Below are positions 2,470-8,539 of a stretch of 64,000 nt of DNA, in pieces. Positions within the stretch are counted from its first letter, which is position 1. The number at the start of each line of letters is the position of its first letter. The notes beneath the pieces are model-generated. The model did not search any database. It saw only the letters and a list, made by a program, of their open reading frames with translations, and had not been told where the DNA came from. The stretch spans positions 124,001 through 188,000 of the forward strand of contig PMSN01000022.1 of the NCBI GenBank assembly GCA_003167555.1, in the 5' to 3' direction. This DNA comes from Spartobacteria bacterium. GTDB taxonomy: Bacteria; Verrucomicrobiota; Verrucomicrobiia; Chthoniobacterales; UBA10450. The translations under genes and the position numbers were made by a program.

Positions 2470-2504
2470 CGGCGATCCGGAAATTCCGGATCGCCGTTTT
2501 ATTT
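2470..2504 (+). terminator. Rho-independent terminator
   Basis: An 11-bp perfect stem (CGGCGATCCGG / CCGGATCGCCG) closes a 5-nt AAATT loop and is followed by TTTTATTT. It ends the plus-strand transcript from the cysteine-rich protein gene, and its 3' part overlaps the stop of the convergent nuclease gene. Confidence 0.9.
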
Positions 2505-3542
2505 CAGCGCTTTCTCCAGCACCTCAGCCAGCCGCCAGCCCGCCTTGGGCAGTTCCTCCCGGACGGTGCGCGCAGCCCAATCGTAATAGGAGATGCCGTC
2601 GGCAGATTTCTTTTCGTCGGCGATCCCGGCCGCGACGACCGCGCCATCATCCAACGTTTTCGCAGCGACGTCTTTGAACTGGAGACGCTCATGTGCTTCG
2701 CGCGCGATGGGCAGGATTTCGTCCGCCCAAGCTTGGGAGTAATCTTTCAGGGCGATGCTTGATGGCAGCCGCCAGTTCCTGGGTTCATGCGTGACAAATT
2801 CGTGAACCAAATCCTTCTTGGCGGCTTCGATCTTTGCATGCCGCTCCTCCTTCGAGAGCGTCTCCGGCATCGGCGGCAGATTCGCCATCACCGTCTCGCT
2901 GTCCCAAAAGCCGTGAAATTTTGAGTGGCGCGCCAGCTCCGTCCCGCCACTCGCGAGATTCAACGTCAAGGTGTTCCCGCCCTGATCCTCGAGGCTTCCG
3001 TCCGTCTTGCCGGGATTGATCGCATGACCTGTCTTGTCGAAAAATTCCGCGCCGACATGAAGCGGCTGGTGGATATCGCCGACGAAATGCGCCAGCAGAA
3101 TCACCGCGATCGATTTCGTGATCTTGCGCGGGTTATCTTCCGGCACATCCGTGTAGTGAAACCAGTGGTGTGACGGTGTGGGAGAATTCAAATCCTTCGT
3201 TGGCGGATTGGCATACCAGTAATCACGCAGTTGCGCGTCGATCCGCGGATGCGCGGAATAATGAAAGGCGGCCGGATCATCCGGGCCGTTCTTGTCCCAG
3301 CCTCGAATCTCATCCGGAATTACGGACGCTTTCTCCAGGGTGATTCCGTCCAGGAGCGCGGCGACCTTCGCGCCCGCGGGCGTGTGCGCCAACTTCTCGT
3401 CGGCGAGCGCGCCGATGATTTCGTGGCCAACTGGACCGTAAGCGCAGGCATTTTGCAGGACGAGAAGCGCGGAAAGCGTGATCGCGCATTTAAGATAAGA
3501 AGTCATATAAGCTCTTAATTTCAAAACGGTAGAAGACATCAA
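2499..3542 (-). CDS. S1/P1-family zinc nuclease, secreted
   Basis: S1/P1 nucleases are trinuclear-zinc phosphodiesterases that cleave single-stranded nucleic acid outside the cytoplasm. Family landmarks are visible in order: a signal peptide, then YGPVGHEIIGALAD at the mature N-terminus, ASVIPDEIRGW, HHWFHYTDVP, HFVGDIHQPLHVG, GGNTLTLNL and KFHGFWDSE. The His and Asp residues in these motifs are the expected zinc ligands. The canonical N-terminal Trp ligand appears replaced by Tyr. The start may be 3542 or the ATG at 3506, and the latter gives a more compact signal peptide. It is convergent with the gene to its left. A role in phosphate or nucleotide scavenging is inferred. Confidence 0.88.
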   Translation of the reverse strand: MMSSTVLKLRAYMTSYLKCAITLSALLVLQNACAYGPVGHEIIGALADEKLAHTPAGAKVAALLDGITLEKASVIPDEIRGWDKNGPDDPAAFHYSAHPRIDAQLRDYWYANPPTKDLNSPTPSHHWFHYTDVPEDNPRKITKSIAVILLAHFVGDIHQPLHVGAEFFDKTGHAINPGKTDGSLEDQGGNTLTLNLASGGTELARHSKFHGFWDSETVMANLPPMPETLSKEERHAKIEAAKKDLVHEFVTHEPRNWRLPSSIALKDYSQAWADEILPIAREAHERLQFKDVAAKTLDDGAVVAAGIADEKKSADGISYYDWAARTVREELPKAGWRLAEVLEKALK

Positions 3543-3563: not shown

Positions 3564-5762
3564 CTATTTTTGCTCTAAGAGCCCGGTGCGGCCAACTCGT
3601 TCGCCTTTCATGAAGACCGCGGAAACAGATGAAAGAGCCCGAACATCCTGGAGCGGGTTGCCATCGACAATGAGCAAGCTGGCGTCCTTGCCCTTTTCAA
3701 TCGTGCCGATGCGTGACTCCGCCCGGAGCAGCTTCGCGGCGTTCGCGGTCGCCGCTTGCAGCGCCACTTCGATCGGAATGCCGGCCGCGACCCAAAGCTC
3801 AATTTCGTGTTGCACCGTGGGTCCGTGCATGACCAGAAAATTTCCCGCATCCGAACCGGTCACGAGCATCACACCCGCGTGCCAGGTCTTGAGCAGGTTC
3901 TTGCCACCGATCTCGAGTGACATCGGGTAATGCTTCAACCCCTCGCGGAGGTTCGCCATTTCAGTGTTCGTGGCGGCGTGTTCGGTGCCGTCGAGCAAAT
4001 CCTTCTTCGTGACCTGTTGCACCAACGAGCGCTTGAGCAGCGTCGTGTCGCCCTGCGCGAAATTGGTCATGCCTTCCACCACGCTCAATGTCGGATCGAG
4101 CGCGATTCCTTTCGCCTTCATCTCGGCGATGGTCGCGTCTGGAATTTCGTCCGCAAACGATCCGTGCTCGACGGAATTCGTGCCGACCGCCACGGCATCC
4201 GCCACGTCCTGAATACTCCCTGTGTGAATCGCCACCGGCAAGTTCTTCGCATGCGCTTCTTCGACCACGGCGCGCAGGATGGTCACGTCCATGCGATTAA
4301 ACGGATACCCCGGCGCGCCTCCTTCGAGCACACCTTTGATCGCATCGATGTGTTGCGCCGCGAGCGCATCCACCTGTTGGCGTGCTTCGTCCGCCGTTTT
4401 CGGTAGCCTCACGAAATCCGCGAGGAACCCGGCGCGGAGAGACTCCGGCAGGAATTTCCCATACTCCGTGCCGTGCCCGCCCTCGGTGGTAAAGAGCGGA
4501 CCGCAGAGAAATAATTCGGTCCCGAGTTTCTCGCCGCTGTTAAATTGCTGCCGAAGTTTGAGCATTGGGCCGACGGCATCGCCCGCACTGCGCACCGCAG
4601 TCACGCCGCTGAACAAATAAGCTTCCAGTTCCCGTTCGAACGATTTCGTTTGGTCGACCTTGCTCCAGTCGTCATAGAAACCTCCGCTCGCTCCCAAATG
4701 TACGTGCACATCGATCAGTCCGGGCAGCACCGTCTTGCCGGCCGCCTCGATCAATTCCGCCTTTAGCGTTTTGGCATCCGGCGCCGAGCCTTCATAAATC
4801 TCCGCGATTTTCCCGCCGCGAATCAGGACCGAGCCCGACTCGATCACTTTGCCGTTGCCGACAAAAATTCGCGCGTTCTGGATCAGGCACGTTTGCCCGC
4901 GATCCCGATCGCGAGCCAGGATTTTTGCTTTCGCCAGGTCCTGTCCTCTCCATGACTGATACACACCGAGGAGCAAAAACGGAGCGAGCGCAGCCAGCAC
5001 CCAAATCTTGGCGGAATTGCGCAGCTTCTCCTCTTTTTCCCAACGAAAAAGTTTTGTCGCGATGAATATGCCGACCAGCGCCGTCACAATGAGCGCAATG
5101 ACCGACTGCCAGTTGTCGAGAACGGATTCGCCGTGCTGCAGAATTCCGGCGATGCCCGTCATCAAATAGGTCGCCGGGATGAATTGCGTCACGATTTGGA
5201 GCCAACCAGGAAAGAAGGTGATCGGGAAAGTCGCGCCGCTCAGGAAAAGCATCGCCATGTAAAGCGGCTGAATGAGAATCAGACTTTCCTGGGATGAATT
5301 GACGACGGCGGCGATGATCAAGCCCATGGATCGAAACGCGACACATGCGATGATCGCGAAGAGAAACAACGAGCCGAGATTCGAAGGAATCGCCATTCCG
5401 AAAAGCCGGTTGGCCAGGATGAGAGTGACGATGAGTCCGGGGAGATAGAGAATGACGCCGGTCACCATCGAGGCGGCGAGAAGCGGGACCGGTGTGATCG
5501 GAGTGACTTTGTAACGGCGCAGCACGTCGGTTTCCCGATCCTGCACCGCGCGCATTCCCGCTCCGAACAAACCGTTTCCGAGAATGCCGATCGCGGTGAC
5601 CATGGTGATCACTTGAATGATTCTGGATCCCTGTTCGGCGTGCATCGAGTAGCCGAAAACGAAAAAGAAGATAAGCGGAAAGAAGTAGTTAAAGAACAGG
5701 ACCGAGCGGTTCCGAAGCGCGAGCTTCAGGTCGATTTGGGTGAGGGCGAGAAACGTTTTCAT
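3564..5762 (-). CDS. fusion of ABC-2 permease and amidohydrolase
   Basis: This 732-residue ORF has no internal stop. Residues 1-260 form an ABC-2-type exporter permease with six hydrophobic segments and typical motifs (MRAVQDRETDVLRRYKVTP, LSGATFPITFFPGWL). Another hydrophobic segment near 265-280 links to a metal-dependent amidohydrolase of the imidazolonepropionase/prolidase type (residues about 295-730). The latter shows GLIDVHVHLG with His353 and His355, a Lys in the AIKGVLEGG segment, VAIHTGS, NSVEHGS and GSDAGN. The ATPase gene lies 4 nt upstream in the same operon. If not an assembly artefact, it joins an export channel to a hydrolase; which side of the membrane the hydrolase faces is unknown. 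Confidence 0.88.
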   Translation of the reverse strand: MKTFLALTQIDLKLALRNRSVLFFNYFFPLIFFFVFGYSMHAEQGSRIIQVITMVTAIGILGNGLFGAGMRAVQDRETDVLRRYKVTPITPVPLLAASMVTGVILYLPGLIVTLILANRLFGMAIPSNLGSLFLFAIIACVAFRSMGLIIAAVVNSSQESLILIQPLYMAMLFLSGATFPITFFPGWLQIVTQFIPATYLMTGIAGILQHGESVLDNWQSVIALIVTALVGIFIATKLFRWEKEEKLRNSAKIWVLAALAPFLLLGVYQSWRGQDLAKAKILARDRDRGQTCLIQNARIFVGNGKVIESGSVLIRGGKIAEIYEGSAPDAKTLKAELIEAAGKTVLPGLIDVHVHLGASGGFYDDWSKVDQTKSFERELEAYLFSGVTAVRSAGDAVGPMLKLRQQFNSGEKLGTELFLCGPLFTTEGGHGTEYGKFLPESLRAGFLADFVRLPKTADEARQQVDALAAQHIDAIKGVLEGGAPGYPFNRMDVTILRAVVEEAHAKNLPVAIHTGSIQDVADAVAVGTNSVEHGSFADEIPDATIAEMKAKGIALDPTLSVVEGMTNFAQGDTTLLKRSLVQQVTKKDLLDGTEHAATNTEMANLREGLKHYPMSLEIGGKNLLKTWHAGVMLVTGSDAGNFLVMHGPTVQHEIELWVAAGIPIEVALQAATANAAKLLRAESRIGTIEKGKDASLLIVDGNPLQDVRALSSVSAVFMKGERVGRTGLLEQK

Positions 5763-5766
5763 CGGA

Positions 5767-6696
5767 TCAATCGCGGAGCTTCTTGCCGGTCAGCTCGATG
5801 AAGACATCTTCGAGCGTGGGTCGCATCAGGCGCACATCGTCGAGCTCGATTCCCTGGGTATCGATCCACTTCACCATCTCCACCAGCGTCCGTGCCGGAT
5901 GTTCCGAGGTGACTTTGATCTGCCGGCCATCGTCGCTCAGCGTGCTTTGAATTGCGTGAGGCCAGGAAGGAAGCGCGCCGCCGCGCCACGGCTGCGTGAA
6001 GACAATTTCAATCGCGGCCTGGTTCGCGCTCTTCGCCTGCAGTTCGCGCGGTGATCCGCTCGCGATGATCTGACCTGCGTCGATAATCGCGACGCGATCG
6101 CAGAGCCGTTCGGCTTCCTCGATATAATGCGTCGTCATCACGATCGTTCGCTTTTCGGCGCGCAACTCCTCGATCAAATCGCGAATCTCCAGGCGCACCT
6201 GCGGGTCGAGGCCGCTGGTCGGCTCATCGAGGAACAGCAGTTGCGGATCGTTGATCAGGGCGAGCGCGATGGCGAGCCGCTGTTTTTGCCCGCCGGAAAG
6301 CGTGGCGTAACCCGCATCTTTTTTTTCCCAAAGCTGCAAACGTTTGAGCAAGGCATTGCCGTCGACATTGCGGGTATAAAACGCGCCGAAAAGTTTCATC
6401 GCTTCCTGCACCGTGATCTTGTCCGGAAGATTTGTCGCCTGCAGGCAGACGCCGATGCGGTCCTTGAGTTTTTGCTTTTGCCGGTCGGGATCGAACGCGA
6501 GGACGGTGACATCACCCGCGGAGCGCGGCCGCAAGCCTTCGAGAATTTCCACGGTAGTTGTCTTGCCTGCGCCGTTCGGGCCGAGCAATCCGAAGACTTC
6601 GCCGGGGCGCACTTCGAAATCGATGCCTTTGACGGCCTCGAACGCGCCGTACGATTTCCGGAGGCCTCGCACGTGAATGGCAAATTCGTCGTTCAT
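5767..6696 (-). CDS. ABC exporter ATP-binding protein (CcmA/DrrA type)
   Basis: It supplies the nucleotide-binding subunit for the permease encoded 4 nt downstream. Walker A (GPNGAGKT), Q-loop, signature LSGGQKQR, Walker B LLFLDEPTSG and the H-switch His (MTTHYIEEAE) are all intact. The length (309 residues) and the C-terminal extension ending DVFIELTGKKLRD fit the drug or polysaccharide exporter ATPases that pair with ABC-2 permeases. The substrate is not predictable. Confidence 0.93.
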   Translation of the reverse strand: MNDEFAIHVRGLRKSYGAFEAVKGIDFEVRPGEVFGLLGPNGAGKTTTVEILEGLRPRSAGDVTVLAFDPDRQKQKLKDRIGVCLQATNLPDKITVQEAMKLFGAFYTRNVDGNALLKRLQLWEKKDAGYATLSGGQKQRLAIALALINDPQLLFLDEPTSGLDPQVRLEIRDLIEELRAEKRTIVMTTHYIEEAERLCDRVAIIDAGQIIASGSPRELQAKSANQAAIEIVFTQPWRGGALPSWPHAIQSTLSDDGRQIKVTSEHPARTLVEMVKWIDTQGIELDDVRLMRPTLEDVFIELTGKKLRD

Positions 6697-6754: not shown

Positions 6755-8539
6755 TCACGCCGCGCGTTTTTGTCTGATGCGTCGGGCTGCCAGGACGACG
6801 AGCACGAGCACCGAGACGCCCACACAGCCTTGCGCGAAAACTTCACCGTAGCGGACATAGAACGTTTGCTCGGTTCCAGTAGGGACTGCGATTTCGCCGG
6901 TCAGAACGCCTTCCGTGAATTGGCTCCCGGTTTCGTCGAGCAACGTTTGCGTGATGCGCCCGAACTCATTCACGAAACAAGTGACGCCGGTGTTTGCCGC
7001 CCGCACCATGGGCAATCGCGTTTCCACGCAGCGAAAAACCGCGTTCGCCAGATGCTGTTGCGAAGCTGCGGAGCGCAGAAACCAGCCGTCGTTTGTCACG
7101 TTCGCGAGGACGTTTGCGCCGGCGAGAACAAACTGCCGGGTGAGGTCGCCGATCGTGTCTTCGAAACAAATGAGCGGCGCGACCTGCGCCTTATCATTCG
7201 TTAGGTGAAAGACGGTGTGCTCTTTCCCGAAGGCGAAATCGTCGGGGACCTGGTCGCCCACGACCCGCGCGAGAAGCGGAATCGTGTGCCGGCCGGGAAC
7301 GTATTCACCAAACGGCACGAGATGGACCTTCCGATAAACCTGCACTCGTTTTCCCGCGTCGGAAATAAGGAGCGCCGCGTTGTAAGCGTTCGTTTCATCC
7401 TGGTCGATCGTGCCTAGGAGCAGATCCGTTTTGGCCGACGCCGAAAAATCCATGACGAACTTGTAGCTCGCTTCGTCGGTGAGAACGGGACCGGGCATCG
7501 AGCTTTCCGGCCAGATAAGCAAATCCGGGCGCGCACTCGCGCCGAGACTCGGGGCGCTCAGCCGGGAAAATTTGTCGAAGATGGCCTGCGCGAATTCCCC
7601 GCTGAACTTTTGTTCGCGCGGCACGTTCGATTGGACCAGCGCGACGCTTAGGGGTTTTGTCGGCCGCTGCAGGCGGAGCGCATGCAAGCCGAATCCCATC
7701 ACACCGACGATGGCCGCCATCGTGAGCGTGAGATCGTAATGCGGCCGCATCGGTCGCACCTGGGTCTCGAGAATGAATCGGCGGGCCGTACTGAGGAGAA
7801 TGACGTTCGTGAAAACGACGAGGAACGAAAGACCGGCCACGCCGGTGAACTCGACGATCTGGATCATGGCCAATTGATCGTGCAAAGCGGCGCCGAAAGT
7901 GTTCCAACCCCAGCCGGTAAGGACCAGGCTGCGCAGCCATTCCTGCGCGACCCAGACCGCGGCGAGCAGAAATGCGAGCCGGAGATTGTTAGTGGAGCGC
8001 AACCAGGGCGAGCGGCTTTGTGACGACTCGCTCGCCACGGCGGAGTCCGTCCCGGGAGAAGGCGGATTAGGCGGCGGTGCGAGATAACCGCTCGTGGCTC
8101 CGGAAGCGTCGGAGGCGGCGCCGAATTCCGCGGCGCGTTTTTCCGTGAGCCGTCGCGACACTGCCTCCAAACCGCTGAATTGTTTCTGGCGAATTTTTCG
8201 CAAGCCCGGACGCAGCGCTCCGCAAATCCAACTCCAGAGCGCGAAGTAAATCGCCATGTAGGCGCCGACGAGGATCCAGCCGGGAACCGTGACGGTTCGC
8301 AGCCAGGAAAAAACAATCCAGAAGAAAGTGATCCCGGCGACGTAACCGAGAAGCGAATCGCGGAGCCAGCCGCGTTTCGAACTGATCCCGGAAAACCAAA
8401 GCGCGGCGAGCAGAGGCGTGAGCGCGATCCAGCAAAGCCACGTCTGGTTGAAGGGCGCGAAACATCCGGCGTAGAGAACTCCGGTGGAGATCGCGGCGAG
8501 CCACGGCCAGAGCCGAAGCGCTTTTGTTAATCGGCCCAC
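6755..8539 (-). CDS. lnt: apolipoprotein N-acyltransferase
   Basis: Lnt transfers the third acyl chain onto the N-terminal Cys of lipoproteins in the inner membrane. The N-terminal 260 residues contain several membrane segments. The rest is a nitrilase-like C-N hydrolase domain with the catalytic triad in LIWPESSMPG (Glu), YRKVHLVPFGEYVPGR (Lys) and APLICFEDTIGD (Cys). At 594 residues it is longer than typical Lnt (about 510), owing to a Ser/Pro-rich insertion around residues 140-180 between membrane segments. The start ATG is followed at once by the first membrane segment. The next gene upstream ends 6 nt away. Confidence 0.93.
   Translation of the reverse strand: MGRLTKALRLWPWLAAISTGVLYAGCFAPFNQTWLCWIALTPLLAALWFSGISSKRGWLRDSLLGYVAGITFFWIVFSWLRTVTVPGWILVGAYMAIYFALWSWICGALRPGLRKIRQKQFSGLEAVSRRLTEKRAAEFGAASDASGATSGYLAPPPNPPSPGTDSAVASESSQSRSPWLRSTNNLRLAFLLAAVWVAQEWLRSLVLTGWGWNTFGAALHDQLAMIQIVEFTGVAGLSFLVVFTNVILLSTARRFILETQVRPMRPHYDLTLTMAAIVGVMGFGLHALRLQRPTKPLSVALVQSNVPREQKFSGEFAQAIFDKFSRLSAPSLGASARPDLLIWPESSMPGPVLTDEASYKFVMDFSASAKTDLLLGTIDQDETNAYNAALLISDAGKRVQVYRKVHLVPFGEYVPGRHTIPLLARVVGDQVPDDFAFGKEHTVFHLTNDKAQVAPLICFEDTIGDLTRQFVLAGANVLANVTNDGWFLRSAASQQHLANAVFRCVETRLPMVRAANTGVTCFVNEFGRITQTLLDETGSQFTEGVLTGEIAVPTGTEQTFYVRYGEVFAQGCVGVSVLVLVVLAARRIRQKRAA

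Follow-up and report, generated by a model that had tools for sequence, protein, structure and literature searches.

In the window, by which we mean the whole 64,000-nucleotide stretch of DNA that we analyzed, one gene joins an ABC-2 exporter permease to a complete metal-dependent amidohydrolase, and this fusion is real and widespread. Our preferred reading, to which we give a probability of roughly 0.6, is that the gene encodes an exporter with a tethered periplasmic amidohydrolase that acts on the cargo, the beta-sandwich part of the enzyme also serving the transporter. At the level of the whole group, the chances seem about even that an exporter class of Acidobacteriota and Verrucomicrobiota acquired a periplasmic amidohydrolase, carried on an added seventh helix, and later converted this enzyme on repeated occasions (at least 11, counting well-supported branches of our tree) into a non-catalytic, shrinking module of the transporter, so that active enzymes, pseudoenzymes, and helix-only permeases would form a graded series.

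The fused gene lies on the minus strand (3564–5762) as a single ATG-to-stop frame of 732 codons, as the preliminary description had it, and both domains are complete by Pfam. The permease domain (aa 1–240, 5043–5762), which has six transmembrane helices and an external helix by hydropathy and the AlphaFold2 model, matched ABC2_membrane (PF01061) over aa 4–207 with an E value of 1.6e-19 and 70.7 bits vs. a gathering score of 26.9. The amidohydrolase domain (aa 290–732, 3567–4895), predicted to be periplasmic, matched Amidohydro_1 (PF01979) over aa 344–723 (E 4.8e-32, 112 bits vs. a gathering score of 25), and this match spans profile positions 1–345 of 345. All six ligands of the superfamily are present, confirming the complete enzyme that had been described from its HxH motif and downstream ligands. 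By alignment and ligand classification, they are the HxH pair H353 and H355 (4698–4706), invariant in our alignment A1, K476 (4335–4337), which is presumably carboxylated, H513 (4224–4226), H533 (4164–4166), and the catalytic aspartate D638 (3849–3851). The adjacent ATPase had also been recognized correctly. It is encoded upstream in the same orientation across a four-base gap (5767–6696, minus strand, 309 aa; PF00005 E 1.7e-30), and its Walker A, LSGGQ, Walker B, and switch histidine motifs are all in place, as expected of an ABC-2 partner. A separate ATPase and six-helix permease side by side (PF00005, PF01061) are likewise typical of DrrAB- and NodIJ-type ABC-2 exporters. Unlike these systems, the window permease is extended by a seventh helix and an enzyme at its C-terminus, and the curated cut-offs were missed for drrB (TIGR01247; permease 49.3 bits vs. 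223.05), drrA (TIGR01188; ATPase 266.4 bits vs. 312.45), and nodI.

By tblastn, the full-length fusion is open in all eight genomes of the genus at 70–100% identity, and the same full-length frame occurs in unrelated assemblies, so the junction holds neither a stop nor a frameshift. Across the family, 83 genomes were searched; in 20, a single frame is open across the query (in one case from residue 26 onward), and in three the gene lies in pieces at contig ends. Matches at E 1e-60 or better were found in 25 of the 213 genomes of the order and, within a sample of the class, in eight of 384. These eight include G263, a genome outside the window's order with a full-length fusion 30% identical to ours; within the order of G263, relatives of its fusion were found in one of 196 genomes, G263 itself. 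In contigs of named genomes there were 104 related loci, of which our scan covered 80. The 50 fused proteins discussed below comprise 48 loci with a full-length frame taken from these 80, the window protein, and the G263 copy. Record titles place the fused loci in Chthoniobacterales/Spartobacteria (Verrucomicrobiota) and Bryobacterales/Solibacter (Acidobacteriota). They include the nearly complete genome of an isolate, Bryobacterales bacterium F-183 (AP025252, L100), and a MAG titled Nevskia soli (L110) that falls, as G700, in the order of G650. We refer to this order as Bryobacterales because G650 holds L100, and 161 of its 257 genomes had a match. An ABC ATPase adjoins the fused gene in 49 of the 50 loci, and the fiftieth (L080) is cut by a contig end. 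Among plasmids, 370 records had partial matches and none covered 80% of the fused protein.

The preliminary description of a six-segment permease stands for the permease domain, which has six helices; the linker holds a seventh that had been missed, making seven in all and changing the side of the membrane on which the hydrolase is expected. The junction (aa 241–289, 4896–5042) consists, by hydropathy and the model, of a basic cytoplasmic segment, the seventh transmembrane helix (aa 249–272, 4947–5018), and a connector helix (aa 274–288). After the sixth permease helix, a segment beginning FRWEKEE is followed by a hydrophobic stretch in all 50 fused proteins. The AlphaFold2 model of the window protein, built from 40 sequences (pLDDT 90.6, pTM 0.85), places helices at residues 19–39, 47–77, 91–121, 129–153, 157–174, 215–237, and 249–272, with an external pair within 186–210 and the connector at 274–288. 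ABC-2 permeases have their N-terminus inside, and with seven helices this puts the hydrolase outside. The segment before helix 7 is rich in K/R in the fused proteins; one to five K/R residues also occur within the 15 residues after the helix, which weakens the positive-inside argument there. Relatives point to the same side. By eye rather than with a predictor, we saw a hydrophobic signal or lipobox-like stretch at the N-terminus of all 20 unfused hydrolase homologues from nine Bryobacterales genomes, and 23 of 25 further unfused homologues start, by the same judgment, with a Sec- or lipoprotein-like signal. From the helix count, these relatives, and in part the charges, the hydrolase is probably periplasmic.

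The periplasmic side is further supported by permeases of the same family that lack a hydrolase: those from Chloroflexi, Actinobacteria, and Bacteroidetes MAGs stop at, or a few residues beyond, the cytoplasmic FRW that follows helix 6, and two others, a Blastocatellia permease (L123) and a permease in G887 (L238), end after helix 7. A stepwise origin, from six helices to seven, then the connector, then the hydrolase, fits L123 and L238. Helix-only permeases near the fused group (L232, L234, and L248, which are not on the tree) may instead be losses.

The nearest solved structures to the hydrolase are an Xaa-Pro dipeptidase (2qs8), arginine/lysine carboxypeptidases (3mtw and 3be7), prolidases (3feq/3mkv), and ochratoxin amidohydrolases, the best being 26–30% identical to it. 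A VIA comparison of model residues 289–732 with Xaa-Pro dipeptidase-like structures gave Z scores of 42–45 over 371–391 residues at rmsd 2.6–3.0, led by 9kov_G (Z 45.0, 371 aligned, rmsd 2.6) and 2qs8_B (Z 44.4, 390 aligned, rmsd 2.6), and the model has the barrel and beta-sandwich fold of the superfamily. The domain thus shares both fold and HxH-K-H-H-D site with the Xaa-Pro dipeptidase/aminoacylase-like amidohydrolases (labeled COG1228 in papers). It differs from them in its 26–30% identity, in being fused to a transporter, and in often having a dead metal site in the acidobacterial order, and its score for the Xaa-Pro dipeptidase family NF051886 (166.6 bits) is below the curated cut-off of 500. 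Relatives are described as acting on Xaa-Pro dipeptides and N-acyl-prolines (PMC11511702), and a secreted enzyme of the wider superfamily as cleaving taurine-conjugated bile salts (PMC13081902, preprint). Because relatives cleave such compounds, the likeliest substrate, as judged from proteins at 26–30% identity, would be an amide with an amino-acid-like part.

The two halves of the fusion have traveled together. Trees of the permease and of the hydrolase for 71 shared intact proteins had 33 of 68 splits in common, compared to a mean of 0.2 and a maximum of 2 in 200 label shuffles. A single clade of all fused hydrolases was not rejected (p-AU 0.63), with long branches in play. In both domain trees, the clade of the window holds 18 Verrucomicrobiota proteins and two sisters from MAGs of the acidobacterial order (L084 and L110), and in the permease tree this clade is nested among Acidobacteriota. 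The placement of L084 and L110 suggests transfer between phyla or mis-binning.

An independent operon in G941 (L250:4740–8715) brings a related enzyme together with an exporter. The hydrolase there is a separate protein that shares 39% identity with a fused domain and has one TM-like stretch at its N-terminus and a CIA30 domain (PF08547) at its C-terminus. Its gene lies five bases before that of an ABC ATPase, which is followed by an ABC-2 permease of another type. In G1281 (L251:4752–7466), permease, hydrolase, and CIA30 are fused in a single protein of 905 aa, and the ATPase gene lies upstream. Separate genes in relatives were found only as one operon with a different permease family (L250) and in the form of permeases that lack or have lost the hydrolase, and these cases support the coupling rather than refute the fusion. 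As side observations, amidohydrolase genes also lie near unfused ABC-2 permeases in a Gemmatimonadales MAG (L125) and a Planctomyces MAG (L130); in the latter, about 30 bases separate the end of the permease frame from a hydrolase gene that belongs to a different subfamily.

ABC-2 exporters usually comprise two ATPases and two permease subunits, and under our preferred reading the window ATPase and the fused permease would assemble in this dimeric way. Each permease would carry a periplasmic amidohydrolase on the added seventh helix. The cargo would be pumped out and cut by the tethered binuclear metal enzyme at its exit, leading to one-way export or to maturation of a product; it is most likely an amide that contains an amino-acid-like part (an N-acyl-amino acid, a dipeptide, or a lipo-aminoacyl compound). 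The beta-sandwich and C-terminal part may have an added structural or gating role for the transporter, whether in assembly, gating, or cargo binding, and this role alone would be retained where the metal site is lost. The preliminary description had proposed that export and hydrolysis of the same substrate are coupled. The association of hydrolase with exporter is supported by the shared splits, the adjoining ATPase, and the L250 operon, while we infer that it is the same cargo that is cut. For the window protein, we predict amide hydrolysis together with transport.

The metal site is not kept everywhere. All six ligands are present in 41 of the 50 fused proteins and not in the other nine. We extended the ligand census to 150 of the 161 matching Bryobacterales genomes; at least two of the other 11 (G783 and G887) have no fused gene. 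In this census, 84 genomes had an intact site, 11 had lost one or two ligands, 50 had three or more changed, four fell in a bin without a recognizable amidohydrolase, and one was cut short. At least one canonical ligand was therefore missing in 61 of 145 complete fused proteins, where any ligand change is counted as loss of the canonical site, although forms with one or two changes may retain metal binding. Among the 50 with three or more changes, which include two proteins lacking the N-terminal part (L228, itself fragmented, and L231), the core (window aa 425–545) was mostly deleted, with about 100 core residues often gone. In the bin of four, the hydrolase is truly absent from G672 and G730 (L232 and L234), which keep the permease and helix 7, and the frame is broken in G849, with N and fragments, and in G864. 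The G864 locus (L279) has one in-frame TAG right after helix 7 in a fused gene that is otherwise complete with intact ligands, and this could be a split gene, a step of decay, or a sequence error. Some damaged forms lie on contigs of 3.5 to 9.5 Mb (L193, L196, L205, and L210), and each of nine damaged-copy genomes that we examined has a single fused copy.

These losses bear most directly on the strongest alternative, in which the domain serves the transporter mainly as a non-catalytic periplasmic part (a cap, a cargo receptor, or a dimerization module) and catalysis is secondary in window-like forms. In a permease-only tree of 116 proteins (119 less three identical ones), a set purposely enriched for short forms and extracted as open frames, so that all are open by construction, the intact/dead label needs 17 changes, of which 11 are forced by starred branches. 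If loss is read as one-way, there are 21 maximal all-dead clades. Many branches of this quick tree are weak; hence, 11 is the safer number. Unfused relatives served as a control and kept all six ligands in 42 of 44 cases: 24 of 24 in one set, from which a further homologue (L024) was dropped as truncated, and 18 of 20 in a second, drawn from nine genomes, eight of them with a damaged fused copy, where the two exceptions have N for the first His. What remains of the dead domains is under purifying selection, evolving somewhat faster than the intact domain but far from neutrally: by Nei–Gojobori counts, omega was 0.08–0.26 in the hydrolase remnant (13 dead pairs), 0.06–0.23 in the intact domain (12 intact pairs), and 0.02–0.18 in the permeases. 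The beta-sandwich is about as conserved in dead proteins (0.66 and 0.73) as in intact ones (0.70 and 0.73), and the C-terminal helices somewhat less (0.65 vs. 0.74), whereas the barrel core is filled in only 23% of positions in the 39 proteins with four or more ligands lost. An AlphaFold2 model of a short form (L111, pLDDT 84.5) keeps helix 7 and the beta-sandwich strands.

Still, several observations do not sit well with a chiefly structural domain. Selection against change is as strong as noted above in the intact hydrolase domains, 84 of the 145 complete Bryobacterales proteins are intact, and two genomes have dispensed with the whole domain while keeping the permease and helix 7. Every member of the window's 20-row clade has all six ligands. 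Given this clade and the ligands of the window copy, catalysis is expected there. We therefore regard the non-catalytic alternative as unlikely overall, though the best of those we considered; Bryobacterales make a better case for it than the window does. That relatives have repeatedly lost the metal site means that hydrolysis is not always needed, and in the Bryobacterales lineages that have lost the site or the domain, it is not essential to the exporter.

A different possibility is that the permease is a tether only, anchoring a periplasmic scavenging dipeptidase or aminoacylase whose substrate is external and has no relation to the cargo. This would agree with the secreted or lipoprotein-like character of the unfused relatives, the two closest of which (L235 and L236) have no transporter among their near neighbors. 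However, a signal anchor would suffice for such an enzyme, yet the domain has kept to a single permease lineage and has an ABC ATPase beside it in 49 of 50 loci. The L250 operon, an independent case, places a TM-anchored relative together with an ABC-2 exporter whose permease belongs to another family. On balance, we consider tethering alone improbable.

The gene neighborhood gave little indication of what is exported. Read from translations and clusters, the window has lnt-like and phosphoglucomutase-like genes upstream and a ClpB-like gene downstream. The lnt-like gene (an apolipoprotein N-acyltransferase by appearance; 6755–8539, minus strand) lies upstream of the ATPase, and its cluster recurs in 14 of the 50 loci. 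Directly downstream of the fusion is an S1/P1 nuclease gene (2499–3542, minus strand), with its cluster in five of 50. In several Acidobacteriota loci, a gene for a DJ-1/PfpI protein lies just upstream of the ATPase (L083:3353–4075 and L117:3533–4072; nine loci in the blast cluster). None of the neighbors scanned, which included S1/P1 nuclease, DJ-1/PfpI, beta-lactamase-like, NamZ, and amino acid permease genes, was decisive for the cargo, and in the fused loci we found no third gene conserved across phyla beside the fusion and the ATPase.

This bears on self-protection, which the preliminary description had suggested, and on the related idea that the system matures the prodrug of a specialized metabolite, as in ZmaM/ClbP systems. 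C39 peptidase-containing ABC transporters are hydrolase–exporter fusions that act on their cargo, and they differ from the window fusion in that the peptidase is cytoplasmic, N-terminal, and of an unrelated family; the Pfam matches of the window protein include neither an N-terminal C39 peptidase nor a PF00144 peptidase domain of the ZmaM/ClbP type. In ZmaM, a ClbP-like, periplasmic-type hydrolase is joined to an ABC half-transporter (PMC9889268), and the window ATPase resembles DrrA, though below the cut-off given above. The ZmaM enzyme, however, is an N-terminal beta-lactamase-family peptidase on a half-transporter, whereas the window protein is an ABC-2 permease that ends in a metal amidohydrolase. 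Moreover, the scanned neighbors in the immediate flanks contained no biosynthetic genes for prodrug-type products, the surroundings look like housekeeping genes, and the fusion is present in all eight genomes of the genus. Self-protection is thus not specifically supported, and we consider this explanation, together with prodrug maturation, quite improbable. Finally, although the majority of the genomes are metagenome-assembled, an assembly or annotation artefact is ruled out, as is chance, by conservation: the same frame recurs in numerous independent assemblies, in an isolate genome that is nearly complete, and on contigs of 3.5–9.5 Mb.

In line with the earlier remark that this is not a standard architecture, we found no published account, in the limited literature collection searched, of a metal amidohydrolase that is predicted to be periplasmic and forms the C-terminal end of an ABC-2 permease. 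Hydrolase–exporter fusions as such are already known; what surprises more is that an enzyme within a transporter was recurrently converted to a pseudoenzyme. The C39 and ZmaM fusions showed how cells mature or disarm the compounds they export. The window-type fusion involves another enzyme class, predicted to lie on the outer side of the membrane, and is present in every searched genome of a soil genus. Within one bacterial order, the domain can be found intact, damaged, shrunken, or lost, and this series makes two questions testable: what an uncharacterized ABC-2 exporter carries, which its enzyme may reveal, and what a fused enzyme does for its transporter after catalysis has been lost.
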